A stretch of DNA of 29,534 bases, from IMG/VR virus record IMGVR_UViG_3300035162_003488, positions 1 to 29,534 of that record, one strand, 5' to 3'. Shown piece by piece: positions 3,772 through 19,927 of the stretch (positions are counted from its first letter, which is position 1; the number at the start of each line of letters is the position of its first letter). The translations under genes were made by a program, and so were the position numbers. Source of the stretch: a virus. The notes under the pieces are model-generated. The model ran no database searches and had not been told where the DNA came from. It saw only the letters and a program-made list of their open reading frames with translations.

Positions 3772-4169
3772 TGAAATTAATTTATATCAATAAAATTGGT
3801 CAGAATTGGAAAGGGAAATTTGTTTATGAGTTTCTCTTTTCTGACGCAAATTTAAAAGATATAGATGGTGAAGGATGGGATAGTTATCCATCATCAGGTA
3901 ATCCTGAAGCTCCGGAGGATTTTGTTGGTAAAACAGGGTCATTAGTTTCTGAAATGAAATTAGACTTAATCCAAGATAGTGATACTTTCGCTATATGGGA
4001 TGCAATCGATGGAGTTGTCTCAATGGCTTGGGAAAATATGGAAGGTTATGATGAGTATCCTGATAGTAGATTAAATTTCTCCTTTGCTGAAGATATTAAA
4101 TCAGTAGAAGATAAACTATATGAAAAAGATATGGTATTAAATTACGATAAAGAATTATTAAACGTATGA
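3771..4169 (+). CDS. Hypothetical protein, coupled to neighbours
   Basis: A 132-aa acidic protein. Its ATG overlaps the stop of the preceding gene (TAATG) and its own stop overlaps the next start (ATGA at 4166), so three genes are translationally coupled and likely work in one assembly. It reads as a compact alpha/beta protein (MKLIYINKIGQNWKGKFVYEFLF at the N-terminus in two beta strands, then acidic loops and GVVSMAWENMEGY). There is no signal peptide, membrane segment or catalytic motif. Function unknown; a virion or assembly role is inferred from the operon. Confidence 0.65.
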   Translation: MKLIYINKIGQNWKGKFVYEFLFSDANLKDIDGEGWDSYPSSGNPEAPEDFVGKTGSLVSEMKLDLIQDSDTFAIWDAIDGVVSMAWENMEGYDEYPDSRLNFSFAEDIKSVEDKLYEKDMVLNYDKELLNV

Positions 4170-4657
4170 AAAAAATAGTAAAACTTACAGAAAGTGATCT
4201 TAATAGAATTGTTAAGAAAGTTATGAAGGAATCAGTTGAGAATCCTGAAATGAGTGGGTCTTGGGAAAGATCTAAATATGAACCAACACCAAGAGAAGGT
4301 GGTGTTAAAGATGTATTCGGAAAATATGGTGAAGATATGTTACCTAATATCATAAGGTATTTGAGAAAAAATCCTGATGCTATTTTAAGAAGAATGTCTA
4401 AAATGTACCCAGAAATTTATATGAGACACGTACCAGTAGAACCGGATTATAGAGATGATGATGATTATATGTCTAGTTATGGTGATGATGTTTCTATGGA
4501 TGCACCATTGGATGAAGTAGATGAAAAGAATTTTAAAGAATTAACTTACACTAAAAATGATGTTGATAAAGCAGCATCAGACGGTATTGGTATCCAAGCT
4601 AATGGTAGTGTTACACCTACACCTGATGGTGGAATGAAAGTAACAAAAGAACAATAA
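4166..4657 (+). CDS. Unknown head-region protein with N-terminal LTES tag
   Basis: A 163-aa protein. The first 24 residues, with core KLTESDLNRIVKKVMKES, are basic and amphipathic and contain an (L/I)xE|S site at 7-10. They closely match the N-terminus of the otherwise unrelated protein at 13699. By analogy with T4 internal proteins this looks like a capsid-targeting peptide removed by the prohead protease. The body has an acidic middle (YRDDDDYMSSYGDDVSMD) and a C-terminal Gly/Thr-rich tail. It is coupled to the upstream gene through ATGA and followed one base later by the next start. Function otherwise unknown. Confidence 0.7.
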   Translation: MKKIVKLTESDLNRIVKKVMKESVENPEMSGSWERSKYEPTPREGGVKDVFGKYGEDMLPNIIRYLRKNPDAILRRMSKMYPEIYMRHVPVEPDYRDDDDYMSSYGDDVSMDAPLDEVDEKNFKELTYTKNDVDKAASDGIGIQANGSVTPTPDGGMKVTKEQ

Positions 4658-4658
4658 G

Positions 4659-5384
4659 ATGAAAGGTAAGAATAAATCTTTAATGTTGGACAGTAAGAAG
4701 AAGGGTAAGAAAAAGAATCCTCATACTGCGAAATGGAAACGTTGTTTCAAAAAAGTTTCCAAAGAGGAAACAGATGAGACATCAGCAAAGATTTGTACTG
4801 ATTCAGTAGGTTACGAAGAATCTTTTAAAGAAAAAAGTAAACATGAGTCAATAAATGAGAAAAATTTACTATCTTTGATAAAAGAAAAAGAAAACCCTAG
4901 AATGACAAAGAAAGGGTTAATAGAATATATTAAATTATCAAAGAAAAAAGAAGTTATTAAATCTACAAATAAAAAAGGAATGGTTTCAGAAGCATTAGGT
5001 AATAATTTAGGTACGAAATTACGTTATTTCAAAGGTGAAAAAGGTGCAATTACGAAGGTAATGAAGTATTTAGAAATGATTAGACAAAGTGGTTTAGAAA
5101 ATATGCATGGGGCACATCCAATACTTAATTGGGCTCCGGATGATTTACATAGGTATTTATATGGAAAAAGTATGGATCTTGATTCATTAGATGATGACGA
5201 TAGGGATAAAAAGGTTATTGAATATTTGGTAAACCATAAACAAGAAGTAAGAGATATTTTAACTAGGGTAGCACTAAGAAAAGCAGAGGAATTAGGTGAT
5301 CATGAAATGAATACCATACAAAGACATTTTAATCGAGCTTCACTTGAAGCGTTTGAGATTTGGGTGGGGATAATGAGTTTATAA
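4659..5384 (+). CDS. Hypothetical protein with strongly basic N-terminus
   Basis: A 241-aa protein. Residues 1-40 are very Lys-rich (KKKGKKKNPHTAKWKRCF), suiting nucleic-acid or scaffold contact. Residues 60-110 remain charged and include MVSEALG, another (x)SE|A-like site. The C-terminal half (120-241) looks globular and helical, with GAHPILNWAPDDLHRYLYGKS and a final run LEAFEIWVGIMSL. The start lies one base after the stop of the preceding gene, so it is in the same transcript. No family recognised; possibly a DNA-contacting head protein. Confidence 0.65.
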   Translation: MKGKNKSLMLDSKKKGKKKNPHTAKWKRCFKKVSKEETDETSAKICTDSVGYEESFKEKSKHESINEKNLLSLIKEKENPRMTKKGLIEYIKLSKKKEVIKSTNKKGMVSEALGNNLGTKLRYFKGEKGAITKVMKYLEMIRQSGLENMHGAHPILNWAPDDLHRYLYGKSMDLDSLDDDDRDKKVIEYLVNHKQEVRDILTRVALRKAEELGDHEMNTIQRHFNRASLEAFEIWVGIMSL

Positions 5385-5397
5385 AAACAATATAGAA

Positions 5398-6633
5398 ATG
5401 AGTAAGAAAATTAATGTTGGTAAAATAACTAACAAAATATTAAGTGAAAGATACGAAGTTAATAAAGAAGTTCAAAAATTAACTGAATCTATCGAATATG
5501 ATCCAGCACATCCTGAAAGAATGCATCGGGATATTGAGGATAAATTAAGGGCTGATAGTCACCATTTGGGTGGTAATAAATCTTTACCTAAAACTACTGA
5601 TCAGAGACACTATTCAGAAAAACTAGCATCTAAAAGATATAAAGATTTAGTAACTAGTGTAAAAAGGTATTGGGGTGTTGAAACTGTTGATCCTAGAATG
5701 GCAATGCAGGTTATGCAATTGTTACAACAAGTTATGGAATTGGAGAGACCTCACAGAGCTGAATTAGAAAGATTAGCTGTTGATTTAGTTAGAGAGGAAT
5801 TTGATGTTCCTGAAGATCAAGTTGACATTGATGCTAAATTAGTGGATGGACAGATTTCTGATGATGAAATGCAACAATCTGAAGATGAAGAAGAAATGGA
5901 TTTTGAAAGTGAGGTTGACATTGATCGGCTTAACGGAGAAGTCCAAAAAAGAAGAATGTTAAATGCTATTATGCAAGGTGCGGCTAAGAAAGGTCACTAT
6001 ATGTTTCATATGGTTGCTGAACAACTTACAAACATTGAACCGAGATTAGTAGGGTTATATGGTAAATTAATGTCTATGACTGATTTAACTTATTGGATGA
6101 TACCTGAAATGTCTGGCGGTGGTGGCGGTGGTGACATGAAAGGTGGTAAAGAAAAGTTAGATTTAAGTGGTGACAAACCAAAGATTATCGCTGAGGCTTG
6201 GATATTACCAGTATTACTTAACGAATTGATTAAAGGTGTTATGGAATTACTTGCAGCTCATGGGTTACCTGAAGATGAAAGAGAAGCTAACTATGTTATT
6301 GGTAAAGCTGATACGTTAGATTCTGAAATGTGGGATATGAGATTAGGTCCAGTTATATGGGAGAAATTTATTGGGGCTATTGAAGGTAGTGCTTACGATA
6401 TCAAACATTTCCTTTATTATGAAATGGGTCAATTACCACAAGATGAATTTCATACATTTATGAGAGAATTATTGGCTGGTAGTAGTAAAGGAAAACAAAT
6501 GTTAGTCGATATGGCAAATAAAGTACAGGATGATATCAAAGAAAGAGCGTCTGACGATGCTTTAGGTGATGGAGAGGATGACGATGATGATATTGATTTA
6601 GATGATATTGACATCTCTGACTTATTCAAATAA
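5398..6633 (+). CDS. Large probable structural/assembly protein, unknown
   Basis: A 411-aa protein. The N-terminus carries the recurring protease-like sites (ILSE|R at 15-17, LTE|S at 28-31). It then has a helical region (about 85-140), an acidic linker (about 150-175), a helical segment including GAAKKGHYMFHMVAEQL, a Gly6 run with GGGGGGDMKGGKEK (about 239-252), a second globular helical part (AEAWILPVLLNELIKGVMELL), and a highly acidic tail that ends DIDISDLFK. It is the last gene of the 2062-6633 unit and is followed by a good terminator. It has no membrane segment. I do not recognise it; head or neck structural component is the best inference. Confidence 0.65.
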   Translation: MSKKINVGKITNKILSERYEVNKEVQKLTESIEYDPAHPERMHRDIEDKLRADSHHLGGNKSLPKTTDQRHYSEKLASKRYKDLVTSVKRYWGVETVDPRMAMQVMQLLQQVMELERPHRAELERLAVDLVREEFDVPEDQVDIDAKLVDGQISDDEMQQSEDEEEMDFESEVDIDRLNGEVQKRRMLNAIMQGAAKKGHYMFHMVAEQLTNIEPRLVGLYGKLMSMTDLTYWMIPEMSGGGGGGDMKGGKEKLDLSGDKPKIIAEAWILPVLLNELIKGVMELLAAHGLPEDEREANYVIGKADTLDSEMWDMRLGPVIWEKFIGAIEGSAYDIKHFLYYEMGQLPQDEFHTFMRELLAGSSKGKQMLVDMANKVQDDIKERASDDALGDGEDDDDDIDLDDIDISDLFK

Positions 6634-6647
6634 TAGAATATAAAGTT

Positions 6648-6683
6648 AAAAAAAACCCATTATTAATCTAATGGGTTTTTTTA
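6648..6683 (+). terminator. Rho-independent terminator
   Basis: Perfect stem CCCATTA (6656-6662) with TAATGGG (6669-6675), 6-nt loop, followed by seven T and flanked by a matching A-run, so the stem can extend by A-T pairs and may work in both directions. It closes the 2062-6633 gene block. Confidence 0.85.
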
Positions 6684-6695
6684 TGCCCTTTTGTG

Positions 6696-6703
6696 TATTT
6701 ATT
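6696..6703 (+). promoter_or_regulatory. Putative late promoter (TATTTATT)
   Basis: TATTTAT ends 6 bases before the ATG at 6709 and follows directly on a terminator, so a new promoter is needed here. If the motif acts like a -10 box the mRNA would start at or next to the ATG. Confidence 0.45.
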
Positions 6704-6708
6704 GTTAT

Positions 6709-7794
6709 ATGAAATCACTCATAAGAAAATTATTAACCGAAGAAAAACAGAAGAAATCTTTTTACAGTAGATTTAATAAAGGCGGTTTGAAAAAGGCTGT
6801 AGATAAACAAATTGATGCCTATATGGTAGAGATTGGAAGGTTACATAATTTTTATGGTTCAGATATAATTTCAGAAGTGGCACAAAAATGGGCGTTAGAT
6901 TATACCACATCATCTTATTTAATTTTTAAGTATTTAATGGAGAGGGATGAAGATCCTACAACAATCTATAGCATGTCTGATTGGTTATACAAAAGTAATG
7001 ATGTTTTAGATTTTTTAAAATCTAGTGGATATTATGAAAAATACGTTGACATTTATAGTTTTCATGATTTAATCATTGAAGATGGTAAAGTGATATTGGA
7101 TGTTGAATGGATTGATTTTGTGAATTGGTTTGATGAACCAGAAATTGTAGAACAAGCATTAGGTGAAGATTGGGCACAATTTTTTGATTTATGGAGAAAA
7201 GATACCGAGTTTTTGGAGATATGTGAACTTTTAGATGATGACGCTGTGAAACACGTATTAGAAAGGTTAATTGAGGAATACGATGGGAAGGATATATATG
7301 GTCTAAGCCATAGGGAGGAATTTACATACTTACATGGTGATAATGACTTCTTCAATATGAGTGAAAAGGCGGATGAAGTAAGACAAATAACTGACAGATA
7401 TAATTTAAATGTTTTTATAGATGAAAGTGATTTATCACAATCAGAAGTGGTAGATGATATGTATAATGATTATAGTAACGCTTACAATCTTGTTGGTGAA
7501 GATGAAATATTTAAAGAATGTAAATCTGAAATAGAAGGATACTTGGGTAGTAAAGTAATAGAGGCTGAGGTAAAATTTGATATTACCGGAAGAATTAATG
7601 AGTTAATCGATGAATATATAGAAGGGTCTAGTGAAAATCCAACAGATGAACATAGTAGCTTTACTGATATGGTAGGATCATTATTAAGGAGTTATAGTGA
7701 TGTAAATAAATTAAGTACTTCAGACATAAGTTATTTTTACCCTGATGAAAAAAAATTAAAAGAATACTTCTCTGATCTTATTATACAAAGATAA
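6709..7794 (+). CDS. Unknown protein with N-terminal LTE tag, possible internal head protein
   Basis: A 361-aa acidic, helical protein. I chose ATG 6709 over the TTG at 6691 because the latter lies inside the promoter motif and adds only MCIYCY. The N-terminus MKSLIRKLLTEEKQKKS matches the recurring tag: basic/hydrophobic residues then LTE|E at 9-12. The rest is rich in Asp/Glu and aromatic residues (for example WIDFVNWFDEPEIVEQALGE) with no catalytic motif seen. It stands between a terminator and the next motif-driven gene, so it is an independently transcribed accessory gene. T4 internal proteins delivered with DNA are the closest functional analogy; this is inference. Confidence 0.65.
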   Translation: MKSLIRKLLTEEKQKKSFYSRFNKGGLKKAVDKQIDAYMVEIGRLHNFYGSDIISEVAQKWALDYTTSSYLIFKYLMERDEDPTTIYSMSDWLYKSNDVLDFLKSSGYYEKYVDIYSFHDLIIEDGKVILDVEWIDFVNWFDEPEIVEQALGEDWAQFFDLWRKDTEFLEICELLDDDAVKHVLERLIEEYDGKDIYGLSHREEFTYLHGDNDFFNMSEKADEVRQITDRYNLNVFIDESDLSQSEVVDDMYNDYSNAYNLVGEDEIFKECKSEIEGYLGSKVIEAEVKFDITGRINELIDEYIEGSSENPTDEHSSFTDMVGSLLRSYSDVNKLSTSDISYFYPDEKKLKEYFSDLIIQR

Positions 7795-7802
7795 TATTTA
7801 TA
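7795..7802 (+). promoter_or_regulatory. Putative late promoter (TATTTATA)
   Basis: TATTTAT ends 5 bases before the ATG at 7807, and the intervening AGGTA also looks weakly Shine-Dalgarno-like. The motif starts one base after the preceding stop codon. Confidence 0.4.
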
Positions 7803-7806
7803 GGTA

Positions 7807-8703
7807 ATGAGAATTAGAATCACAGAAAGTCAACGTAGAACAATCCTTAATGAAAATAGGTTTGATAAAGTTGTCGATAAAGTTATTTCAGAATATGGTG
7901 ATAAACCTATTGAGGATATTATAGATATATTAGTTAATAGGTATGCATTAGATTTAAACATTATTAACTCCAACCAAAGATTAAATGATTTCTTTAATGA
8001 AAAGTTTGATGTTCTTATAAACAGAGCAAAAAATGATACGGGATTTAATAAGTGGGCTTTAGAAAAAGATTACGATAAAAATGTTTTGGATATTATAATT
8101 CAAAAATTTGACACTTATTTATCTGATGAAATAGAACAAACATATAGTATAAAAAACCCCATCTCCCAATTAAGAAGATTAAATACAATTAAAAAAGTTG
8201 CTGGGTATATGTTAACTAATAGTGATACTGGTGATTTTATAGAAGATGTAATGGAAGGGTTAATTAATGACGCTATTGATTATATCTACACTAATTATAA
8301 GACAATTAAAGATATGTTAATACATTTAGCATCTGTTAAAAAATTATTCCATAAAAATTATCATAGTTCAGAACAAATAGATAAACAATTCCGATCAATA
8401 GGTAAAAAATATGGGTATAGTATGATACCTAAATCATATGAATGGTCATTTCAAAAAGGTGGCGGTCAAATACAAAGTATTATTAACTACATTAAGGATG
8501 TACCAAAAATGTCAAAGAAAACTAGAGGTGGTTGGCAAGCATCTGTTGGTGAAGACCCTAAAAGAAGGGGTTGGAATAGTAGATTGTGGTCAGCAATGTT
8601 ACAATCAGAGATAGTAGTATCGCATAGAGATGGTAAAGATACTATTTACACATTAGGACCAAACGCAGATGCCTTTGAACGAGGTAAATTAGTAGGTTAT
8701 TAA
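7807..8703 (+). CDS. Unknown protein with N-terminal ITES/LNEN tag
   Basis: A 298-aa protein. The N-terminus MRIRITESQRRTILNEN carries two prohead-protease-like sites, ITE|S (5-8) and LNE|N (14-17), and is nearly the same pattern as the start of the 18545 protein (MKITINESQYKRLFKES). The middle (20-190) is helical and charged. The last 65 residues (GGWQASVGEDP...WSAMLQSEIVVSHRDGKDTIYTLGPNADAF) look like a compact winged-helix-type fold that could bind DNA, with low certainty. It is an accessory gene between the unknown block and terminase. A packaged or injected protein is the favoured inference. Confidence 0.65.
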   Translation: MRIRITESQRRTILNENRFDKVVDKVISEYGDKPIEDIIDILVNRYALDLNIINSNQRLNDFFNEKFDVLINRAKNDTGFNKWALEKDYDKNVLDIIIQKFDTYLSDEIEQTYSIKNPISQLRRLNTIKKVAGYMLTNSDTGDFIEDVMEGLINDAIDYIYTNYKTIKDMLIHLASVKKLFHKNYHSSEQIDKQFRSIGKKYGYSMIPKSYEWSFQKGGGQIQSIINYIKDVPKMSKKTRGGWQASVGEDPKRRGWNSRLWSAMLQSEIVVSHRDGKDTIYTLGPNADAFERGKLVGY

Positions 8704-8722
8704 TACTTTACCCCTTTCTTGA

Positions 8723-8737
8723 TATTTATATAAAAAG
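8723..8737 (+). promoter_or_regulatory. Putative late promoter (TATTTATATAAAAAG)
   Basis: Recurrent motif in the 39-base gap before terminase; TATTTAT ends 13 bases before the ATG at 8743. Confidence 0.5.
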
Positions 8738-8742
8738 ATTAT

Positions 8743-10542
8743 ATGAATAAAACTGAACAATTACAGGTATATGCTAGAAGTTTAGGTGACCCTATTTTTG
8801 CCGTAGAAACGTTTTTTAAGACTTTTGATTTAACTCAAAAGGGTATGGTTCCGTTTAAATTATTTTACAAACAAAAACAAATAATTAAAGCTTACGAAAA
8901 GTATAATCGTAATATTGTAACAAAACCTCGTCAGGCAGGTGTATCAACAACAACTGCAGCTTATATCGCAGCAAAGTGTGCATTTGGTGATCCGACAAAC
9001 CCACATAAAATTCTAATATTAGCCAATAAACAAACATTGGCACAAGAATTCTTAAAAAAGGTGAAAGACTTTTTAGATCAAATACCTAATTGGGTATGGG
9101 GGTTGGAAGAGGGTGAAAGTTATTTAAGTACAGATTCGAAAGGTCATATCATAATTAAATCTAGTAATTGTGAAATTAGAGCGTTAGCAACATCTAAAGA
9201 TGCGTTAAGGGGATTCACCCCAACATTCTTAATTATGGATGAGGCAGCCTTTATTGACGCTGGTGCAGAGGTATTTGGTGCTGCTTTAGCTTCATTAGGT
9301 ACGGGTGGTAAGATTTCACTTATATCCACACCTAATGGTATGGATCCATTATATTATAAAATATATAATGATGCAAAAAACAACCCTAATAGTAACTTCC
9401 ATGTTGTGGAGATGAAATGGTATCATGATATTAGATACAATAGACATTTAAGATGGGAAAGAGGGGAAAATGAGATATTAGTATGTGAGTCTATTGGTAG
9501 AACGCGATTAAGATGGGATTATGAAGGTAAAACATACGAAACTACAGAATCAGATATAGAGGCATATGAATTAATGACTAATGATGGGTGGAAACCTTAT
9601 TCTACGTGGTATGATGATATGGCATCTGATATGGGTGACCCTAAAAAGATAGCACAAGAACTTGACGTATCATTTATTGGATCGGGGGGTAATGTTGTTG
9701 ACGATGAATTTGTAACTTTCCATGAAGAGAACAATGTTATGAAACCGGAATATATGGCTGAATTAGAAAAGTCTATGTGGGTTTGGAAAGAGCCAGAAGA
9801 AGGTCATAAATATATAATGGGTGTTGATGTATCAAGGGGTGACGGTAAGGATAGTTCAACAATAGTAATACTTGATTTTGAAGGTTTAGAACAGGTTGCT
9901 GAGTATCAAGCGAAAATTGCACCTGATTTATTAGCAGAATTAGTCTATAAATATGGGAATATGTATAACGCTTATACTGTAGTTGATATTACTGGTGGTA
10001 TGGGTGTGTCCACTGTTATGAAATTAATGGAGATGGAATATAAACATTTACATTATGACGATCCGAAGAGTAGAAAATTAAGTGATAAATACGCTAAAAC
10101 AAAATATAAACAAGGTGATAAGGTTCCTGGTTTTAATGTTGGTAATACAAGATTACAAATGATATCAGAATTAGAGGAACATATTAGGGAGAATAAGACT
10201 ACTATACGTTCATCAAGGATGATATCTGAATTAAGGACATTTGTTTATAAAGGTGGTAGACCTGACCATATGGAAGGTTATCATGATGATATTATAATGG
10301 CTTATGCAATGCCCTTATTCATTGTTCAAACTTCATTTAAGAAATTAGAACAAGCGGAAAAACAAACAAAGGCTATGTTAGAAGGTTGGATTAATGTTTC
10401 GCAGGATAATGATACAAACAAACAAATACGCTCTAACCAGGTATTTAATAATACACCATCTTATCACCCACCAGTTACTGGACAAAATGGTAGTAATAAT
10501 GATAATGGAGAATACAATTGGTTATTCGGTATAAGACAATAA
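8743..10542 (+). CDS. Terminase large subunit (gp17-like)
   Basis: The 599-aa packaging motor cuts concatemeric DNA and pumps it into proheads through the portal. ATPase domain: Walker A-like KPRQAGVSTTT (61-71), Walker B FLIMDEAAF (162-170, Asp166-Glu167), and coupling motif STPNG (195-199). Nuclease domain of RNase H type: MGVDVSRGDG (Asp362), VVDITGG (Asp415) and YHDDIIMA (Asp515/516) supply the metal ligands. The residue normally Lys in the P-loop (GK[ST]) is Val68-less in the usual place, reading AGVST; Lys61 just upstream may substitute, as in other terminases with a shifted lysine. The C-terminal 50 residues are Asn/Ser-rich and likely flexible. Length matches T4 gp17 (610 aa). T4 places sheath and tube genes after gp17; here a small unknown gene and portal follow. 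Confidence 0.96.
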   Translation: MNKTEQLQVYARSLGDPIFAVETFFKTFDLTQKGMVPFKLFYKQKQIIKAYEKYNRNIVTKPRQAGVSTTTAAYIAAKCAFGDPTNPHKILILANKQTLAQEFLKKVKDFLDQIPNWVWGLEEGESYLSTDSKGHIIIKSSNCEIRALATSKDALRGFTPTFLIMDEAAFIDAGAEVFGAALASLGTGGKISLISTPNGMDPLYYKIYNDAKNNPNSNFHVVEMKWYHDIRYNRHLRWERGENEILVCESIGRTRLRWDYEGKTYETTESDIEAYELMTNDGWKPYSTWYDDMASDMGDPKKIAQELDVSFIGSGGNVVDDEFVTFHEENNVMKPEYMAELEKSMWVWKEPEEGHKYIMGVDVSRGDGKDSSTIVILDFEGLEQVAEYQAKIAPDLLAELVYKYGNMYNAYTVVDITGGMGVSTVMKLMEMEYKHLHYDDPKSRKLSDKYAKTKYKQGDKVPGFNVGNTRLQMISELEEHIRENKTTIRSSRMISELRTFVYKGGRPDHMEGYHDDIIMAYAMPLFIVQTSFKKLEQAEKQTKAMLEGWINVSQDNDTNKQIRSNQVFNNTPSYHPPVTGQNGSNNDNGEYNWLFGIRQ

Positions 10543-10867: not shown

Positions 10868-12880
10868 ATGGCAGAAAAATATACAATATTTCAACAACTA
10901 GAAAGTCTATTCGGTCCTGAAAGGAAAAAAGAAGAGGCAAAATCTAGATATTCGTTGGGGGATGAACAAATACTAAAGACTCAATCTAAAGAAGAGTATG
11001 ATACGGCAAAATTAGAGGCACAACAATCAAAGTACCTTTCTAATATGTGGCATAAGGTGGATAATGAAATCTACCAACAATCAGTATTTTATGAGACAAC
11101 AAGGATTGCATCGTATTCTGATTTTGAGGGGATGGAATTTTTCCCTGAAATTGCAGCAGCGTTAGATATTATGATGGAGGAATCTACAACACAAAATGGT
11201 GAAGGTAGAATCCTTAATATCTTTTCAGAAAGTAAAAGAGTTAGGAGAATATTACAAGATTTATTTTTTAATAAATTAGATGTTCACACCAATTTAGCAA
11301 TGTGGACAAGAAACACTTGTAAGTATGGGGATAATTTCCTATTTTTAGATATCGACCCAAAAGAAGGTATTAGAGATGTAAAACAATTACCTAACATTGA
11401 GATAGAAAGAAGAGAGGGAGATTTTATTGGTCAATACCATGCTGGTAATATAGATAGTGGTGAAGATAAAGATGATGGTAAAGTATCATACTTTTGGAGA
11501 GGTAAAGATGTTACTTTCAATTCTTGGCAAATGGCACATTTTAGACTACTTGGTGATGATAGAAGATTACCTTATGGAACTTCAATGTTGGAGAAAGCTA
11601 GAAGGATTTGGAAACAATTATTACTTTCAGAAGATGCGATGTTAATCTATAGGGTGACAAGAGCTCCGGAAAGAAGAATATTCAAAATATACGTTGGTAA
11701 TATTGATGAACAAGATGTAGCTCAATATGTACAGAAAATTGCTAACAACTTTAAAAGAAGTCCAGTTATTGATGAAAACACTGGTCAAATAGATACAAAA
11801 TATAATCAGATGGCTCAGGATCAGGATTATTTTATTCCTGTTAGAGATCCATCAGCACCTAGTCCGATCGAAACACTTCCTGGTGCGACTAACCTATCGG
11901 AGATTGCTGATATTGAATTCTTACAAAAGAAATTATTTACTGCGTTAAGAGTTCCTAAACCATTTTTAGGTTTTGAGGAAACGAATGGAGATGGTAAGAA
12001 TTTAGCTTTACAGGATATTAGATTTACTAGAACTGTTAATCGTATCCAACAAGCAATGATACAGGAATTAAATAAAATCGCAATCATACATTTATATGTG
12101 TTAGGTTTGGAAGATGACTTGGATAATTTTACATTATCATTAAACAATCCATCTACACAAGCAGATATGTTAAGGACTGAACAACTTCAACAAAAAATAC
12201 AAGTGTATAGAGACTCTGTTGCAGATGCGGGAAATGGTTTTGCTGCAATGTCTATGACTAGAGCGAAGAAAGAGATTCTAGGTATGTCAGAAGAAGATAT
12301 TAGAGTTGATTTAGAGCAACAAAGGATGGAAAAAGCAGCTGCGGCTGAAATGGAACAAACTTCTAACATCATTAAGAAAACAGGTGTATTTGATAGAGTG
12401 GATGCATTATATGGTGAATTTGGTGGTTCTACTTCTGAAGGTGATACTGAAGGTGGTGCTGAAGGTGGAGATGAATTCGCTGCTGGAGGTGGTGGTGGAG
12501 GAGGCTTCGGTGGAGGTTTAGAAGGTGGGGATGAATTCGCTGATGATGGTTTAGGTGGTGAAGAAGGTAGTTTAGGCACTGAAGAACCATCAGTAGGTGG
12601 TGAAGAACTATCGGCAGAACCAGCGGCAGAACCAGCGGCAGAAATACCAATGGAATCACATAATAAAAAAGGTGATTTATTAGTGGAAACTGAAATAAGA
12701 AAAAGGAAATTAGATATTAGAACTAAAAAATATCAAAACATTTTTACTAATAGACTAATAGAGAGTCTTGATCGTAAAGGTATGATACAACCTATGGAAC
12801 ATATCGAAAAGAGTAAGGACAGTTTAACTGAAGATCTGAAGAAAATGTCAGATAATATAGATGAATTAACAAAAGATTAA
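10868..12880 (+). CDS. Portal vertex protein (gp20-like) with long C-terminal extension
   Basis: The dodecameric portal forms the DNA entry channel, docks the terminase and nucleates head assembly. Recognisable T4-family segments are YRVTRAPERRIFKIYVGN (261-278), DQDYFIPVRD (318-327), TLPGATNLSEIADIEFLQKKLF (336-357) and RVPKPFLGFEE (361-371). At 670 aa it is much longer than T4 gp20 (524 aa). After about residue 515 there is a Gly/Asp/Glu-rich low-complexity stretch (519-595, with Gly7 and two GGDEFA repeats), then a basic helical tail (597-670) that contains LVETE and LIES sites like those cut by the prohead protease. NKKGDLLVE (599-607) resembles IKKGDLVES of the 2062 protein. The extension may reach the head interior or bind scaffold. 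Confidence 0.95.
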   Translation: MAEKYTIFQQLESLFGPERKKEEAKSRYSLGDEQILKTQSKEEYDTAKLEAQQSKYLSNMWHKVDNEIYQQSVFYETTRIASYSDFEGMEFFPEIAAALDIMMEESTTQNGEGRILNIFSESKRVRRILQDLFFNKLDVHTNLAMWTRNTCKYGDNFLFLDIDPKEGIRDVKQLPNIEIERREGDFIGQYHAGNIDSGEDKDDGKVSYFWRGKDVTFNSWQMAHFRLLGDDRRLPYGTSMLEKARRIWKQLLLSEDAMLIYRVTRAPERRIFKIYVGNIDEQDVAQYVQKIANNFKRSPVIDENTGQIDTKYNQMAQDQDYFIPVRDPSAPSPIETLPGATNLSEIADIEFLQKKLFTALRVPKPFLGFEETNGDGKNLALQDIRFTRTVNRIQQAMIQELNKIAIIHLYVLGLEDDLDNFTLSLNNPSTQADMLRTEQLQQKIQVYRDSVADAGNGFAAMSMTRAKKEILGMSEEDIRVDLEQQRMEKAAAAEMEQTSNIIKKTGVFDRVDALYGEFGGSTSEGDTEGGAEGGDEFAAGGGGGGGFGGGLEGGDEFADDGLGGEEGSLGTEEPSVGGEELSAEPAAEPAAEIPMESHNKKGDLLVETEIRKRKLDIRTKKYQNIFTNRLIESLDRKGMIQPMEHIEKSKDSLTEDLKKMSDNIDELTKD

Positions 12881-12922: not shown

Positions 12923-13696
12923 ATGAAAAACTTTGGGAAAATAAAAAATAAATTTAGTGAGGTTCTTATAGAATCTATAATTAAGAAGAATGATACTGGG
13001 AAGAAAACTTTTGGTAAATTCGTTAAAATGTTAAAAGAGAATGAAATATTAAAAACACAATATTTCATTTATGATAATATAGAAAATAAGTATTTTGATA
13101 ATAGTGGTGACGCTAAAGATTACATTAAAGAAAGTGTAAGTCTCTTATCAAAATATAAAAAGAAAGATATAATGGAGGCCAACAAAAAATTAGCTTCGTT
13201 AGTAACGGTTAAAAATGTTGACTATGACTCTAAAGGGTTACATGAAAATATTACAAAATTAATCTTTACAGGTAAATCTTCAAAAACACTTGAAGGGTTG
13301 TTAGAATCAATGAATACATTAAGAGACCATATGACTACAGAAAGAATAGATGAGAGTTCTGAATTCGAAAGAGTAGACTTACCTCCATCAGTATTATCTA
13401 AAATGGTTGTTAATAAATTCAATTCAAAGTATGAAGATATTAGTGAAGGTGAAAAGAAAATCATTAAATCAATCTTAAACGGATCGGAAGAAGATAAACA
13501 AGGTGTTTATGTTGATCTAATGAGGGAGTGTATTGACACTATTGATGGTAAGTTAAATGAAAGTAAGGATAATGACGTAAAAGGGAAATTATTAAGTGCT
13601 AAAGATAAATTACTACGTATGGAATATAATAAAGAAAATTATAGTTCAGATATCAGTAAGGTGTATCAATTAAAAGAATCAATAGAAACAGAATAA
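12923..13696 (+). CDS. Probable prohead core protein (gp67/gp68 position)
   Basis: A 257-aa, Lys/Glu-rich, largely helical protein lying between portal and protease genes, exactly where T4 has the prohead core genes 67 and 68. It contains many protease-like sites: LIE|S (15-18), LLE|S, IDE|S, LNE|S and LKE|S near the C-terminus, as expected of a core protein cut into peptides during maturation. No enzymatic motif is visible. The homology to T4 gp67/68 is by position and character, not clear sequence similarity. It is two bases from the next gene and shares its terminator. Confidence 0.65.
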   Translation: MKNFGKIKNKFSEVLIESIIKKNDTGKKTFGKFVKMLKENEILKTQYFIYDNIENKYFDNSGDAKDYIKESVSLLSKYKKKDIMEANKKLASLVTVKNVDYDSKGLHENITKLIFTGKSSKTLEGLLESMNTLRDHMTTERIDESSEFERVDLPPSVLSKMVVNKFNSKYEDISEGEKKIIKSILNGSEEDKQGVYVDLMRECIDTIDGKLNESKDNDVKGKLLSAKDKLLRMEYNKENYSSDISKVYQLKESIETE

Positions 13697-13698
13697 TT

Positions 13699-13956
13699 AT
13701 GAAAAAGAAAATAGTAAAATTAAACGAATCTGACATTACAAAGTTAGTTAAGAAAACACTTATTAAAGAAAGTGACACGTATCAGTTTAGACTTGAATAT
13801 TCTAAAAATTTAAGAAGACAAGAAAAAACGGCAACTGATGGTGATGCTGATCTTTTAGATGATATCGTAGATGTTTATAAAACTCACATAAAACAAATAC
13901 AGGATTACCTAAAGGGTAAATCCGATAAAGAAAAAGAATCAAAAAATAAAGACTAA
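13699..13956 (+). CDS. Small prohead-core-position protein with LNES tag
   Basis: An 85-aa basic/helical protein. Its N-terminal 25 residues (core VKLNESDITKLVKKTLIKES) carry LNE|S (8-11) and IKE|S (22-25) and closely match the N-terminus of the 4166 protein, although the codons differ (for example Ser-Asp is TCTGAC here and AGTGAT there). The remainder is a charged helix with a Lys/Glu tail. Size and place match T4 gp67 (pip), a small core protein degraded by gp21. A small core or cargo protein is likely; identity is inferred. Confidence 0.65.
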   Translation: MKKKIVKLNESDITKLVKKTLIKESDTYQFRLEYSKNLRRQEKTATDGDADLLDDIVDVYKTHIKQIQDYLKGKSDKEKESKNKD

Positions 13957-13961
13957 TATTC

Positions 13962-13987: not shown

Positions 13988-13997
13988 ATGACCTAAT

Positions 13998-14026: not shown

Positions 14027-14061
14027 TGATATATAATAACATAAAATTTTAGAAATTATGA

Positions 14062-14493: not shown

Positions 14494-14504
14494 TAGTTTT
14501 CATC

Positions 14505-14540
14505 ATATAGGTATATTTATTAAGAAAAGTATACCTATAT
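14505..14540 (+). promoter_or_regulatory. Late promoter motif enclosed in a perfect 11-bp inverted repeat
   Basis: TATTTATTAAGAAAAG (14514-14529) is bracketed by ATATAGGTATA (14505-14515) and its exact reverse complement TATACCTATAT (14530-14540). The dyad ends one base before the protease ATG. It could be an operator on DNA or, if transcribed from upstream, a hairpin near the start codon. Confidence 0.6.
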
Positions 14541-14541
14541 T

Positions 14542-15231
14542 ATGGAAATATTAAAAAACGATCAAACAGGCAAGAAAGGTCTCCTTATTGAGTACGATGC
14601 CGGTTACATATCCCCAAAGAACAACAAACATTTTATTAGTGAAGTAAATAAACTTACTAAAGGTGAACCTATTATAGAAGAACCTTTATATGTTTATGCT
14701 GTCATGCAAAAATACGACCTAGAGAATAGGAATGGGAGAGTCTATCCTGAAGCTATCTTACGAAGAGAAGCTGAAAATTATTTAAAACTTATTAAAGATA
14801 ATAGAGCATTAGGTGAAGCTGATCACCCTGAAAGTTCTATCGTTGCCGTTAGTAGGGTATCTCACAGCGTAGTTGATCTATGGTGGGAAGGTAATACCTT
14901 AATGGGTAAATTAGAAATCATTATGTCACCTGGATTCATCAACCAAGGAATTATCTCATGTGAAGGTGACAGAATAGCAAATTATTTAAGGAAGGGTATT
15001 AAGATAGGTGTATCGTCTAGAGGTGTTGGATCACTATCAAAAGAGAATGGTCAGAACGTAGTCCAAGAAGATTTTGAAATAATCTGTTGGGACATAGTTA
15101 CCTCACCATCAACACCGGGTTCTTGGATATATGGTGAGAAACCTTCCACAGAACAACAAATGAGTGAATCAGAAGATAAAAAGGATAAAAACCTGTTGAT
15201 GGATTCAATAGATGATTTTCTATTAGAATAA
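14542..15231 (+). CDS. Prohead core protease (gp21-like)
   Basis: A 229-aa serine protease of the herpesvirus-assemblin-like fold that cleaves scaffold, core and capsid proteins after (L/I)xE during head maturation. Signature segments: ENRNGRVYPEAIL (61-73), ALGEADHPESS (89-99, catalytic His95), LMGKLEIIMSPG (120-131) and IGVSSRGVGSL (155-165, catalytic Ser158 or Ser159). It then continues to SPSTPGSWIYG. The C-terminus is acidic and ends DSIDDFLLE. Length is close to T4 gp21 (212 aa). It lies just upstream of its scaffold and capsid substrates. Expression is likely from the motif at 14514, which is framed by an inverted repeat. Confidence 0.95.
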   Translation: MEILKNDQTGKKGLLIEYDAGYISPKNNKHFISEVNKLTKGEPIIEEPLYVYAVMQKYDLENRNGRVYPEAILRREAENYLKLIKDNRALGEADHPESSIVAVSRVSHSVVDLWWEGNTLMGKLEIIMSPGFINQGIISCEGDRIANYLRKGIKIGVSSRGVGSLSKENGQNVVQEDFEIICWDIVTSPSTPGSWIYGEKPSTEQQMSESEDKKDKNLLMDSIDDFLLE

Positions 15232-15272
15232 AAAATATTATTAGTAAATGGTGTTTTTTCAAAAGAACCACA

Positions 15273-15287
15273 TATTTATTAAGAAAT
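15273..15287 (+). promoter_or_regulatory. Putative late promoter (TATTTATTAAGAAAT)
   Basis: Long form of the motif, with TATTTAT ending 64 bases before the scaffold ATG, the longest leader in the window. A small hairpin AACCC-GTATT-GGGTT (15289-15303) follows inside the leader. Confidence 0.55.
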
Positions 15288-15343
15288 AAACCCGTATTGG
15301 GTTAATAATAATCAATAATAATTAATAAAACAAATTTATTAAA

Positions 15344-16621
15344 ATGGCTAAAGAAAAAAAATCAATCATTGAAGAGGCTTTGCTAGAAGCGAAGTCTTTA
15401 GAAGATGCCTTAAAAGCCAACACAAAAGAAATACTTGCTTCGACTATGAAGGAAGAAATTAATAGCGTTGTTAGAGAATCTCTTAATGAACAAGGGATTG
15501 AAGATGATGAGTTAGAGGATCAAAATGATGAAATGGAAGATGGATTACCTGGAGATGACGCAGGAGATGATTCAATTGGAGATGAAGAGTTAGGTGACAT
15601 GGAAATGGAACTTGGTGACGAAGAAGGTGTTGAACTGGATTTAGAACTTGATGACGAACTTGGAGACGAAGAAGGATCGGAATTACCTATGGAACTTGGA
15701 GACGAAGAAGGAATGTTAGGAGATTTAGAAGGACTTGGAGACGAGGATGAAATGGATCTTACTATGGCTGGAGACGATGAAGTTATGAAAGTTTTCAAAT
15801 CTATGAGTGACGATGATGAAATTGAAGTTGTAAAAGACGAAGGTGGAATCACACTTAAAGATAATCAGACAGGTGCTGAGTATTACATTAAAGAATCTGA
15901 AGAAGATGAAATTTGTGAAGGATGTGGCAGTGATGACATGTACGGAATTGAAGAAGGTAATTTAGATGAAGTTATGTATGAAGTTGAATTAGATGCCGAT
16001 ATGGCAGATGAGTTAGAAGCTTCTATGGATGAAGATGAAGAACTAATGGGTGAAGATCATACATTAGCTAGATCTAAAGGTCGACAAAGAAAAGGTGGAC
16101 ATAGAAATAGACAAACTTCTGAATCTAAAAGAAACAGAAAACCTTTAGTAAGAGAATCTATAAATAGAAAACCTACTACTAAAAGAAGAGTTACTGAATC
16201 TAAAACTAATGTAAGAAATGAGTCATACCAAAAGTTACTAAAAGAATACAAAGAGTTAAAAACTAGAAATGGTCAATATAAAGAAGCTCTTAAAGTATTT
16301 AAAACTAAAATAAATGAAGTGGCATTGTTCAATCAAAATTTAGCTCACGCTACAAGATTGTTTACTGAACATTCTACTACTAAAAAAGAGAAGATGAAAA
16401 TCTTAAAAAGATTTGATGATATTGAAACTATTAAAGAATCCAAATCTCTTTTTAAATCTATCGAAGGTGAGTTAGGTGAGAAATCTCCAATAACTGAATC
16501 TGTAGATAAGAAAATAAATAAAACTATTGATTCTTCTAAATCAAATCTTAATGAAGCTAAGGCTTATGTTGATCCACAGATTAACGCCATTAAAGATTTA
16601 ATGAAGAGAATTGAAAGATAA
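15344..16621 (+). CDS. Prohead scaffold protein (gp22-like)
   Basis: The 425-aa assembly scaffold fills the prohead and is degraded by the protease before packaging. Position between gp21 and gp23 and overall character fit gp22. The N-terminus (1-35) is an amphipathic helix with IIE|E and LLE|A sites. Residues about 45-235 are extremely Asp/Glu-rich with ELGDEEG repeats and a lone CEGC pair (Cys191, Cys194). Residues about 240-285 are Arg/Lys-rich with VRES, VTES and RNES sites. Residues about 290-425 form a coiled-coil including EVALFNQNLAHATRLFTEHS, typical of gp22. It is longer than T4 gp22 (269 aa); the extra length is mainly the acidic domain. Confidence 0.9.
   Translation: MAKEKKSIIEEALLEAKSLEDALKANTKEILASTMKEEINSVVRESLNEQGIEDDELEDQNDEMEDGLPGDDAGDDSIGDEELGDMEMELGDEEGVELDLELDDELGDEEGSELPMELGDEEGMLGDLEGLGDEDEMDLTMAGDDEVMKVFKSMSDDDEIEVVKDEGGITLKDNQTGAEYYIKESEEDEICEGCGSDDMYGIEEGNLDEVMYEVELDADMADELEASMDEDEELMGEDHTLARSKGRQRKGGHRNRQTSESKRNRKPLVRESINRKPTTKRRVTESKTNVRNESYQKLLKEYKELKTRNGQYKEALKVFKTKINEVALFNQNLAHATRLFTEHSTTKKEKMKILKRFDDIETIKESKSLFKSIEGELGEKSPITESVDKKINKTIDSSKSNLNEAKAYVDPQINAIKDLMKRIER
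15605..15748 (+). repeat. In-frame acidic repeats (ELGDEEG) in scaffold gene
   Basis: Three near-identical 21-base units coding ELGDEEG start at 15608, 15656 and 15692, with a variant (GLGDED) at 15731. Spacings are 48, 36 and 39 bases, all multiples of three, so length changes would keep the frame. Confidence 0.8.
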
Positions 16622-16651
16622 ATAAAATAAATTAAAATTAACATTAAAAAA

Positions 16652-18457
16652 ATGGGACATTTATTAAATTCAGGTGAAGTCGGTAATATCGGACTTGAAC
16701 ACCTAAAACAAATTAGAACAAAAACTATGTCGAAATGGGATAGTTTAGGATTCTTAGATGGTCTTAAAGGACACATCAAAGAGAACGTTGCTCAGTTATA
16801 TGAAAACCAAGCATCTTCTTTATTAACAGAGTCTTCTGACGCTGGTTCATCAGGTTCTTTCGAAACTGTTGTATTTCCAATCGTAAGAAGAGTATTCTCT
16901 AAATTATTAGCTAATGATATCGTATCAGTACAAGCTATGAACATGCCAATTGGTAAATTATTCTATTTCATTCCTAAAGTATCTGACGCACCAGTTGCAT
17001 TAGGTGGTAAGGTTGATAGTACTGCTAGTAACAATGGTTCTTTACCTTTTGGTAATGCTGGAACTGCAGTTGCAACGTATGAAGAGAAGTCTCTTTATGA
17101 TTTATATTATAACGATGGTTTATTTGATAAGTCAAAAGGAGCATCTACTATATTAACTGCGAATGGTGTTGAAGCTAACACTTTCGGACCTAATTCTGGT
17201 ACTACAATGGTGTCAGGTTTAACTTGTTCAACTAGCTACCCAGCTAACGAACAAAAAACATTAGGGGCGGATAATTCAGTAAGATATATCAAATTAGCTA
17301 TTCAAGGATTCACTGATTCTAGTGCCGGTAGATTAACTGATTCTTACGGAAATGAGGTAGATACAGAATCTTTCTTAGCTTCTTTAAAAGTTGTTACTAA
17401 TGGTGATATCGTTGATAATGATGGAACATCAATCGCTTTAAGTGGTGAGGAAGTACCATTTAGATTGGTAACACAGAAATACGGAAAAGGTATTGTGGAT
17501 TATTCTACAGGTGGTATTTGTGCTCCTGATGGTTGTCTATTAGTAGAAGTTGATTTAACTCACCCAGCGTGTGTTGATTGTTCTTCAGGTAGAATTGATG
17601 GTTATACTGGTGCTGAATCAGGATTCACATCAACGTCTGTTGCATCTTCAGGTAATTCATTTACTGCATCTTGGTTACAATACGAAGATATGGAATACAC
17701 AACTGAAATGGGAGAAGTATCTTTCGAACTTGATGAAGTTGTTGTATCAGTAACTGAAAGAAAATTAAGAGCTACTTGGTCACCAGAACTGGCACAAGAC
17801 GTTAGTGCTTTCCATAACATCGATGCAGAGGCTGAATTAACAGCATTGCTTTCTGAGCAAGTTGCAGCTGAAATCGATAGAGAGATATTAAGAGATCTAC
17901 GTAAAGGTGGAGCTTGGTCTTTAAGATGGGATTACAACGGATGGAAAAGAGCTAATTCAGGTGGAGGTTTCAACGCTTACACACAAAAAGAATGGAATCA
18001 AACATTGATCACTAAAGTGAATCAATTGTCTGCACAAATTCATAAAGCTACACTTAAAGGTGGTGCTAACTTTGTTGTTGTATCGTCTGAAGTATCAGCT
18101 ATCTTTGATGATTTAGAATACTTCCACGTAAGTAACGCTAACCCAGAACAAGATCAATATAACATGGGAATTGAGAAAATCGGTTCATTAGGAGGAAGAT
18201 ACACAGTATACAGAGATCCATATGCACCAGCTAACTCAATACTTATTGGACATAAAGGAAAATCGTTGTTAGATACTGGATATATCTACGCACCATACGT
18301 ACCTTTACAATTAACTCCAACGTTACAAAATCCATTTAACTTCGCTCCAACGAAGGGGATTATGACGAGATATGCTAAGAAGATGGTAAACAACAGATTC
18401 TATGGTAATATTAGAGTGGATGGAGTTCAAACGTTTGATATTAACGAATTAAGATAG
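16652..18457 (+). CDS. Major capsid protein (gp23-like)
   Basis: The 601-aa HK97-fold shell protein. The N-terminal delta region (1-60) ends in SLLTE|SSD (cleavage after Glu60), matching T4 gp23 processing after Glu65. Conserved segments follow: FETVVFPIVRRVFSKLLANDIVSVQ (70-94), MPIGKLFYF, then an insertion-like Gly/Ser/Thr-rich part, then SPELAQDVSAFHNIDAEAELTALLSEQ and AEIDREIL (about 375-410), and the C-terminal RYAKKMVNNRFYGNIRVDGV. Length is near the T4 protein (521 aa) plus about 80 residues of surface insertion. No late motif immediately precedes it, so it is likely read through from the scaffold promoter. A strong terminator follows. Confidence 0.97.
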   Translation: MGHLLNSGEVGNIGLEHLKQIRTKTMSKWDSLGFLDGLKGHIKENVAQLYENQASSLLTESSDAGSSGSFETVVFPIVRRVFSKLLANDIVSVQAMNMPIGKLFYFIPKVSDAPVALGGKVDSTASNNGSLPFGNAGTAVATYEEKSLYDLYYNDGLFDKSKGASTILTANGVEANTFGPNSGTTMVSGLTCSTSYPANEQKTLGADNSVRYIKLAIQGFTDSSAGRLTDSYGNEVDTESFLASLKVVTNGDIVDNDGTSIALSGEEVPFRLVTQKYGKGIVDYSTGGICAPDGCLLVEVDLTHPACVDCSSGRIDGYTGAESGFTSTSVASSGNSFTASWLQYEDMEYTTEMGEVSFELDEVVVSVTERKLRATWSPELAQDVSAFHNIDAEAELTALLSEQVAAEIDREILRDLRKGGAWSLRWDYNGWKRANSGGGFNAYTQKEWNQTLITKVNQLSAQIHKATLKGGANFVVVSSEVSAIFDDLEYFHVSNANPEQDQYNMGIEKIGSLGGRYTVYRDPYAPANSILIGHKGKSLLDTGYIYAPYVPLQLTPTLQNPFNFAPTKGIMTRYAKKMVNNRFYGNIRVDGVQTFDINELR

Positions 18458-18480
18458 TCTTAATTAATATATTATAAAAT

Positions 18481-18510
18481 AAAAGGGTAGATTTTTTCTA
18501 CCCTTTTTTT
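18481..18510 (+). terminator. Rho-independent terminator after capsid gene
   Basis: Stem GGGTAGA (18485-18491) with TCTACCC (18497-18503), loop of five T, extendable by A-T pairs to 11 bp, and followed by a T-tract. It ends the scaffold/capsid transcript. Confidence 0.9.
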
Positions 18511-18530
18511 ATGCTTTCATGTTTCGTAGA

Positions 18531-18540
18531 TATTTATAAA
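18531..18540 (+). promoter_or_regulatory. Putative late promoter (TATTTATAAA)
   Basis: Comes straight after the capsid terminator; TATTTAT ends 7 bases before the ATG at 18545. An ATG at 18540 runs into a stop after two codons. Confidence 0.45.
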
Positions 18541-18544
18541 TGGA

Positions 18545-19120
18545 ATGAAAATCACTATTAATGAATCACAATACAAAAGATTGTTTAAGGAGTCAATTCC
18601 TGATGACGTATCATTTGAACGTATTACGAATAACATAACCAAACAAACTATAAAGATATTTGAATGGTGTCATAAAAATACCCCACAAAAGAAAAGGTAT
18701 GAAGTAGATGTTAAGGTTAGTGAAAGTAGCCATGCGATACCATTATTAGGTGAAAAAATAAGTAGGGTATTTCTTTTACCTGAACAAGATAGTTTAGTAT
18801 TATCGTATAACTTTTTTATTAGGTATAATGATGAAGGGGATTATGATCAATTTATGGGAGAAGAGTTATCATATTTTGGTCAATATACATGGACTGGTGG
18901 TATTAATGTTGTAAGTCAGAATTATGGTGTTGCAGAAGATAGTAATGTTTGGGTTTATGCTAAAAGTCATGATGAAGCGGAAATTAACATTAATAGTGGT
19001 ATACATAGTGACATAGAAATAGGTGAAGAAATAAATGTTGATGGGTTTGATTACCCTGAATGGGAAATGGATATCGGTAATATAGAAGTAGATAGCCATG
19101 ATCAAATAGAATATAGTTAA
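18545..19120 (+). CDS. Unknown protein with N-terminal INES tag
   Basis: A 191-aa acidic protein. MKITINESQYKRLFKES has INE|S (5-8) in the same setting as the 7807 protein (MRIRITESQRR), whose body is unrelated. The middle is beta-rich (SRVFLLPEQDSLVLSYNFFIRYND; YTWTGGINVVSQNYG) and the C-terminus is very acidic. It has its own promoter motif after the capsid terminator and is followed 3 bases later by the 19124 gene. A packaged internal head protein is the inferred role; no family is recognised. Confidence 0.65.
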   Translation: MKITINESQYKRLFKESIPDDVSFERITNNITKQTIKIFEWCHKNTPQKKRYEVDVKVSESSHAIPLLGEKISRVFLLPEQDSLVLSYNFFIRYNDEGDYDQFMGEELSYFGQYTWTGGINVVSQNYGVAEDSNVWVYAKSHDEAEININSGIHSDIEIGEEINVDGFDYPEWEMDIGNIEVDSHDQIEYS

Positions 19121-19123
19121 GTT

Positions 19124-19927
19124 ATGAGAATTAAAAAGAAATACGTTATAAAAGAAGCTATACTTACAGAGGGTTTAATGGTTGATGATTTAGGTAACCT
19201 TACACCAACACAAAAGAAAGTATTAAAGTCTTTATATAAAAAATATGCAAAAAATGCGGATGATGACTTTAGATACTGGAGGTTAAACACGAATGATATT
19301 ACGAAAGAATTAAATGATAAATGGCAAATGTCATTTCATGAAGCTTATAAGATAAGTAGGTTATTTGTAATGCATGGTGATGATTTATTTAAAGAAAATA
19401 GAATTAACAGTGAAGTCCACGTTGCAGAAATTTTAAAGGGTTATATGGGTACCTTTATTAGTCACTATAAAAAGAGTTTAGAAGATGATGAAATAGAAGG
19501 TGGAGACTGGGATTTAAATATTGGTGGTGAGGTAACACCACATACTAGTCATTTCTGGGACAGTTATAATGGTTTTAGTTTATATTTACCGGTTAATTAT
19601 GATTACAGATGGGAACTACCAAGACATGAAAGAGATGTAGCAGAAAGAAAAATAATAATAATTAAAGTTATCTTCGATCTTGGTGACTATAGGGGAACAA
19701 ATACTGAACCAACCATCTCAATTAAATATAGTTTAGGGGATAGTACAACAGATGTTGCAAATGTTGAAGGTGTGTTAGTTGAGAAAGCGTATTTTGATTT
19801 ACCTAAAGAGGTAAGTAAAGAATCGATGAATGAATGGCTTGATGATCTTGTTGTAAACCAAATAAAACCAATAGTAACGGATTTTAAATATCCTGAAGCA
19901 CCATCGGAACCAGTAACAGAAGATTAA
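19124..19927 (+). CDS. Unknown protein with N-terminal IKEA/LTEG sites
   Basis: A 267-aa protein whose N-terminus MRIKKKYVIKEAILTEGLM has IKE|A (9-12) and LTE|G (14-17). Residues 25-75 look helical with a conserved-looking pattern (SLYKKYAKNADDDFRYWRLNTND), possibly a small helix-turn-helix-like unit. The rest is beta-rich (FSLYLPVNYDYRW; KIIIIKVIFDLGDYRG). It lies 3 bases after the 18545 gene and ends head-on with a - strand gene, the two stop codons overlapping at TTAA. Probably a second internal head or accessory protein; function unknown. Confidence 0.65.
   Translation: MRIKKKYVIKEAILTEGLMVDDLGNLTPTQKKVLKSLYKKYAKNADDDFRYWRLNTNDITKELNDKWQMSFHEAYKISRLFVMHGDDLFKENRINSEVHVAEILKGYMGTFISHYKKSLEDDEIEGGDWDLNIGGEVTPHTSHFWDSYNGFSLYLPVNYDYRWELPRHERDVAERKIIIIKVIFDLGDYRGTNTEPTISIKYSLGDSTTDVANVEGVLVEKAYFDLPKEVSKESMNEWLDDLVVNQIKPIVTDFKYPEAPSEPVTED

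Follow-up and report, generated by a model that had tools for sequence, protein, structure and literature searches.

The viral DNA considered here, IMG/VR virus record IMGVR_UViG_3300035162_003488, is a fragment of 29,534 bases with 31 complete genes (hereafter the window), and its + strand carries a head module resembling that of phage T4. The question raised by this locus is why several genes in and around the module, which encode otherwise unrelated proteins, begin with the same kind of short basic and hydrophobic sequence ending in (L/I)xE, the motif after which the T4 prohead protease, gp21, cuts. A preliminary description had listed six such N-termini and proposed that they are a packaging tag, removed once the proteins have entered the head. 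The analysis reported here suggests, with a probability of roughly two in three, that the tag serves as a capsid-targeting sequence of the T4 kind, peculiar to one lineage in its consensus and carried by a far larger set of cargo proteins.

All six motifs were found in the + strand genes at 4166, 6709, 7807, 13699, 18545 and 19124 (genes are cited by their first base), and a second site follows downstream in the products of 7807, 13699, 18545 and 19124, also as described, and in that of 4166 (Table 1). A rule requiring Met, 1-8 residues and then [LI]xE[SAE], with the motif ending at most 12 residues from the start, matched 7 of the 31 complete genes, all on the + strand, the seventh being the core-like gene 15344. 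When the residues of each protein were shuffled, the mean was 0.4-0.7 matches and seven were never obtained in 5000 trials (P < 2e-4). Deeper candidate sites are present in the + strand head region, in the products of 2062, 5398 and 12923, and in the capsid protein encoded at 16652, where the site LLTE/S ends at E60 counted from the conserved start. The gp21-like protease noted earlier in the window was recovered with matches to PF03420 and phrog_207. The absence of the tag from the - strand holds within the window; in relatives, however, many tagged genes are on the strand opposite to the capsid genes, and many lie far from them.

The search of related phages that had been suggested found the tag widely, in 285 proteins. 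The consensus in these phages, 23 residues in length, is MKKxIRLTESDLxRIVKRVIxE, in which two LxE-type sites, 13 residues apart, flank an amphipathic helix. The 13-residue Glu spacing was present in 101 of 150 cluster representatives, an alignment of which confined the consensus to the protein start; shorter forms, MKIKLTESQYKRIL.E and ..IIKKILREA, also occur. Compared from residue 31 on, the 285 proteins formed 161 body clusters, of which 125 had a single member. The strict pattern was present at 6.0% of 4038 non-redundant gene starts, a set that includes loci found by means of the tag, versus 0.09% of internal methionines, a 65-fold excess. In 160 loci retrieved through a homologous capsid or protease gene, the Glu of [LI]xE[SA] on + strand genes showed a sharp peak at residues 7-12 and a second at residues 16-17 and 20, on a background of a few per position. 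For the pattern [LIV][TN]x[SA], the residue preceding the candidate cut (P1) was Glu in 62% of cases at N-termini versus 20% internally.

The excess was also evident genome by genome. The N-terminal count versus the mean of internal windows was 22 vs 3.3 in G021, 17 vs 4.0 in G026, 11 vs 4.1 in G028 and, in two records that had been found by the tag, 33 vs 6.8 (G036) and 15 vs 5.1 (G059), corresponding to about 7-26 tagged genes above chance per genome of 150-320 kb. There was no such excess in the relative G007 (5 vs 4.5), in Flavobacterium phage immuto (6 vs 4.3) or in the control phages (3 vs 2.1, 3 vs 1.7 and 1 vs 4.8). None of 60 conserved replication, packaging and tail genes was tagged versus 50 of 1222 others, a difference in the expected direction but with numbers too few for significance. 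The tag persists within families: homologues of the 4166 body keep a tag of differing sequence, several 6709 homologues keep starts of the type IIRKILKE/S, and all 20 listed homologues of 19124 are tagged with bodies only about 20-45% identical. Nearly all of 79 homologues in the 12923 family have an LxE(S/A/G/N)-type site near residue 17, many homologues of 15344 keep SIIEEAL, and in several homologues of 2062 [LI]xE(S/D/N/T) precedes the conserved body.

The tag is restricted to one phage lineage, consisting of uncultured relatives of T4. A DNA pattern encoding M-K-K-[IV]-[IV]-[KR]-L-[TN]-E-S matched at least 120 stretches in viral contigs, and a codon-permuted control pattern matched no viral stretch. 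In cellular genomes (257 Gb, 84,980 species genomes) there were 8 matches and no genuine tag among them; at least three were the start of ribosomal protein S19, one was the start of a surface-sugar gene (MKKIIKFNETK) and the rest were off gene starts. A bacterial or host signal peptide was considered and rejected on this result. Of 28 lineage records, 25 contained between 1 and 16 copies by a 23-position hidden Markov model (HMM) of the tag, among them 11 of the 14 that had been chosen by their capsid or protease gene (the window counted), with no match in ten unrelated records, T4, immuto, Microcystis phage Mel-JY01 or three huge-phage records. Among cultured phages, none of 50,697 records matched at E <= 1 with a 23-residue query, which is short enough to show near-perfect copies only; immuto and Mel-JY01 are the nearest cultured relatives by capsid protein.

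Several observations bear on whether these sites are processed. T4 gp23 is cut after E65, and the counterpart in the window is SSLLTE/SS at residue 60. In 81 distinct homologues of the capsid protein [LI][LI]xE/[SATG] occupies one alignment column, the residue before Glu (P2) being Asn, Thr or Ser in 78, and nearly all of the 81 have the narrower [LI][LI][TNS]E/[SAT]. T4 proteins, examined as a positive control, gave the expected sites: IPII and IPIII start MKTYQEFIAE/A, LRE/S of gp24 ends at residue 10 and LTE/A of gp23 at residue 65. The 13699 gene, which bears a full tag, sits between the portal and protease genes in the position of T4 gene 67 (synteny with the T4 order 20-67-68-21-22-23), and T4 gp67 is a gp21 substrate (PMC9958956). 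Proteins of the 5398 family have leaders of 10-44 residues that are not alignable, yet [LIV]xE stands right before the conserved body in 31 of 32 homologues (22 in strict register and 9 shifted by one residue, read from the list), and E30 is nearly invariant. In an AlphaFold2 (AF2) model of the 5398 protein, the predicted local distance difference test score (pLDDT) is about 40-50 in the leader and about 90 in the body. This family provides indirect support for removal of the N-terminus by a protease. Similarly, residues 1-20 of the 7807 protein have a pLDDT of 48-61, and the ordered body begins at about residue 21 (about 90), so removal of the poorly ordered first 20 residues would be expected to leave the fold intact. 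The second site of this family (residues 14-16) is kept across 26 homologues.

The preliminary description had also proposed testing the linkage of the tag to gp21, and a partial link was found. Among records of 120 kb or longer, PF03420, the family of gp21-type (S77) proteases, was present in 14 of the 15 found by the tag versus 3 of 7 controls; this size cut was chosen after the data were seen because shorter records are fragments, and at all record sizes the figures were 19 of 36 versus 5 of 32. A looser control pattern was used for this comparison, the first one having given just 17 contigs, none over 91 kb. The S77 protease is also present in all 30 relatives that had been selected through their capsid or protease gene. 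The association is consistent, with T4-like ancestry as a partial confounder.

In 8-20% of the lineage genes a directional element, ATATTTAT(A), precedes the start codon by about 25 and 15 bases; it is almost never found in three control phages. In the window it precedes, for example, 7807, 8743, 12923, 18545 and the - strand genes 19924-21324 and 24968-25357, and it was also seen in G021, G026, G028, G036 and G059. It precedes the gene for the large terminase subunit (TerL) in 34 of 45 cases, the 12923 family in 71 of 72, the protease in 65 of 81, the portal in 35 of 71 and the capsid gene in none of 56, and is probably a promoter or leader element. No common late promoter for tagged and capsid genes emerged from k-mer tests; ATATTTAT marks TerL, the 12923 family, the protease and the portal and not the tagged genes.

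The explanation that best accommodates these results is a capsid-targeting sequence. The tagged proteins would dock on the prohead core through the basic N-terminal strand and the amphipathic helix, and the shell would assemble around them. The gp21-type protease, judging from the identity of the sites, would then cleave one or both LxE sites behind the Glu, along with the capsid protein and the core, and the bodies, now freed of the tag, would remain inside the head until they are ejected together with the DNA. Many of the cargo proteins would probably have early roles, countering host defences or affecting host metabolism. The cargo may have grown to its present size because the tag is short and portable. 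Of the original proposal, a real tag on unrelated bodies, in one lineage, with an S77 protease and capsid-like sites has stood, and from these we infer packaging, cleavage, injection and an effector role. A stronger formulation, in which the large T4-like phages of an uncultured lineage have a two-site capsid-targeting code to themselves, load each head through it with one to several dozen different proteins and remove it with the prohead protease, has about an even chance of being correct.

Several points weigh against targeting followed by cleavage: 1) the cultured phages searched yielded no member of the lineage, 2) large T4-like phages carry an S77 protease anyway, so its association with the tag is in part confounded, and the relatives G007 and G008 have the protease and no tag, 3) the upstream element ATATTTAT of the packaging genes is not common to the tagged genes, 4) in the 7807 family the first site is lost in 5 of 26 homologues that keep the second, 5) LTESDL is more conserved than the loose specificity of a gp21-type protease needs, and 6) two correspondences between tags and capsid site were sought and not seen: P2 is no different at N-terminal and internal sites, and the residue after the cut (P1') does not covary between the two, LINE/A capsids occurring with LTE/S tags. 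The over-conservation of the first site, which fits a helix cap, leaves room for docking without cleavage.

The N-terminus would in that case be an unprocessed docking element, a short strand and capped amphipathic helix that is never removed and contacts one shared partner of phage or host origin. LTESDL, read as an N-cap, together with the 13-residue Glu spacing, resembles a capped helix of fixed length, and orthologues that lack the first site retain the hydrophobic pattern (MKVIINNRQHLLLVE). However, LxE(S/A) also persists in some tags that lack a following helix (KQIKE/ATSHRGSG, VLLE/ATSDSGG), the same residues occur at apparent processing points in the capsid protein and the 5398 family, and in the AF2 models the segment is not part of the ordered body. 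We consider permanent docking unlikely. Somewhat more doubtful is a mixed case, in which head-module proteins are cut as core or capsid precursors while the dispersed tagged proteins attach by the same helix to the head or to the site of replication, few of them being effectors that are injected. In its favour, head-module tags are conserved orthologue by orthologue whereas dispersed tagged genes, which lack the promoter element of the packaging genes, are mostly body singletons, but the same 23-residue consensus is found on the gene in the gp67 position and on dispersed genes, and T4 likewise addresses non-essential cargo by a single signal.

A recently copied DNA element with no function at the protein level could account for the clustering of tagged genes in some genomes (8 adjacent pairs in G036 vs 1.05 expected). 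The fraction of identical codons in the tags, however, is 0.59 vs 0.49 expected from codon usage; the residues are held while synonymous codons vary nearly as codon usage predicts, which argues against recent copying, and orthologues keep the tag while their bodies diverge to about 20-45% identity. This explanation is largely refuted and very improbable. Chance matches or start-codon composition can be dismissed almost entirely, for although LxE is common and a few loose matches, such as MGALLESG of the capsid protein, are fortuitous, the 65-fold excess over internal methionines, the shuffling result in the window and the absence of HMM matches in control phages refute them.

The features of the window are collected in Table 1.

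Table 1. Head-module and tagged genes of the window; a slash follows the Glu of each candidate site, and Glu residue numbers are given as E
Feature	Position	Strand	Candidate sites and remarks
Acidic protein, 569 residues	2062..3771	+	LNE/S (E31) ahead of conserved body; Glu codon 2152-2154
Tagged protein, 163 residues	4166..4657	+	Tag 4166-4231, MKKIVKLTE/SDLNRIVKKVMKE/S; KLTE/S (E9), MKE/S (E22); candidate Glu codons 4190-4192, 4229-4231; tag HMM E = 9e-14
Head-region protein, predicted 30-residue propeptide	5398..6633	+	Leader 5398-5487, ending KLTE/SIEYDP; KLTE/S (E30)
Tagged protein, 361 residues	6709..7794	+	MKSLIRKLLTE/E; LLTE/E (E11); Glu codon 6739-6741
Tagged protein, 298 residues	7807..8703	+	MRIRITE/SQRRTILNE/N; RITE/S (E7), LNE/N (E16); Glu codons 7825-7827, 7852-7854; directly 5' of large terminase gene
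Large terminase subunit	8743..10542	+	phrog_2 E = 3e-49
Portal protein	10868..12880	+	phrog_213 E = 2e-64
257-residue protein between portal and protease	12923..13696	+	Candidate site LIE/S (E17); Glu codon 12971-12973
Small tagged protein, 85 residues	13699..13956	+	MKKKIVKLNE/SDITKLVKKTLIKE/S; KLNE/S (E10), IKE/S (E24); Glu codons 13726-13728, 13768-13770; tag HMM E = 5e-10
143-residue protein	starts 14062	+	Between 13699 and protease
gp21-like prohead protease	14542..15231	+	PF03420 E = 1e-24; phrog_207 E = 6e-42
Acidic core-like protein, T4 gp22 position	15344..16621	+	Start MAKEKKSIIEE/ALLE/A; IIEE/A; between protease and capsid gene
gp23-like major capsid protein	16652..18457	+	PF07068 E = 4e-71; predicted maturation site SSLLTE/SS; Glu codon 16829-16831
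Tagged protein, 191 residues	18545..19120	+	MKITINE/SQYKRLFKE/S; TINE/S (E7), FKE/S (E16); Glu codons 18563-18565, 18590-18592
Tagged protein, 267 residues	19124..19927	+	MRIKKKYVIKE/AILTE/G; VIKE/A (E11), LTE/G (E16); Glu codons 19154-19156, 19169-19171

The gene order of the head module parallels that of T4, and the protease may cleave its own N-terminus at LIE17/Y. Pfam and PHROG searches placed none of the tagged bodies of the window in a confident family. In searches with the predicted folds of 7807 and 5398 there was no significant PDB match; the sole match for 5398 was one uncharacterised protein of an uncultured phage. The place of 7807-8703 corresponds to that of the T4 small terminase gene, and the AF2 model of its product has a winged-helix-like C-terminal region, with weak ArsR-like Foldseek matches, so the modelled protein may bind DNA. 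Adjoining the head module, 917-1681 encodes a protein (phrog_36119) with a nucleotidyltransferase-like stretch (TGSLSNYNWSKFSDVDLHIL); in some relatives this protein forms part of longer ones.

Most tagged bodies in the lineage are also without a known domain. The domain matches obtained were two different GNAT acetyltransferases (L019, L024), LysM (L266), a peptidoglycan-binding domain (L185) and, weakly, DHH (L233). The tagged 152-residue protein of L320:231-689 has a GLGTDE stretch like an annexin repeat; an annexin match (8e-5) came from a group Pfam scan and was not reproduced when this protein was scanned singly. A tagged family of about 500 residues recurs in several phages (L205:521-1936, L220:5774-7321, L201:2067-3557), its members starting EYYEIPASEYxxLLSxTGYNG after the tag. 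In L210:6013-8551 (G036:C1:31641-34179), six neighbouring small genes start MK(Y/F)LITES, and most of their bodies are related (YLDNQDF...); by sequence they look like a tandem-duplicated cargo family. Injected phage proteins are usually known solely from the virion proteomics of a few isolates. Should the tag prove to be an address for the capsid, uncultured genomes could be read directly for hundreds of probable first-wave proteins, a focused set for tests of anti-defence and host-takeover activity, and there would be a new signal for placing proteins inside phage heads. The two-site code, if real, would be a direct sequence-level list of more than 150 phage protein families delivered at infection.

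Capsid targeting of the T4 kind is already known; the present motif, in its variant and scale, was not found described in the open-access literature searched, where subscription journals are largely missing. In the SPN3US/phiKZ group, as proposed here, inner-head proteins lose N-terminal propeptides to a related prohead protease, but those propeptides are mostly longer than 100 residues, have no single short consensus and are cut at another motif (PMC5694885). In phage P1, whose Dar proteins counter host restriction, N-terminal residues of DarB suffice to send a reporter to the capsid, although this targeting was described for one large protein and no motif on many proteins was reported there (PMC9024508).

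The closest parallel is T4, where there is precedent for the targeting, cleavage and injection of internal proteins (PMC9026906, PMC9958956, PMC12373910). Dissection of the T4 leader assigned residues 4 and 7 to targeting and residues 8 and 10 to processing, and foreign proteins were packaged (PMC9026906). The internal proteins IPI, IPII and IPIII, alike in nothing but their packaging leader, inhibit GmrSD restriction enzymes, a different one each (PMC12373910), and gpAlt modifies the host RNA polymerase by ADP-ribosylation (PMC9958956). The tag differs from the T4 capsid-targeting sequence, MKTYQEFIAEA, in its consensus beyond LxE, and its HMM has no T4 match; it also has roughly double the length and a second site, and is carried by 161 body clusters at about 7-26 genes per genome above chance, compared with three internal proteins in T4 and at least 10 reported in T-even phages (PMC12373910). 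Like the sequence on IPI, IPII, IPIII and gpAlt, the tag is a short basic and hydrophobic N-terminus that ends in an LxE-type site followed by Ala or Ser, is shared by otherwise unrelated proteins (small ones in T4), and is accompanied by a gp21-type S77 protease, a matching site in the gp23-like capsid protein and the gene order gp20-67-68-21-22-23.

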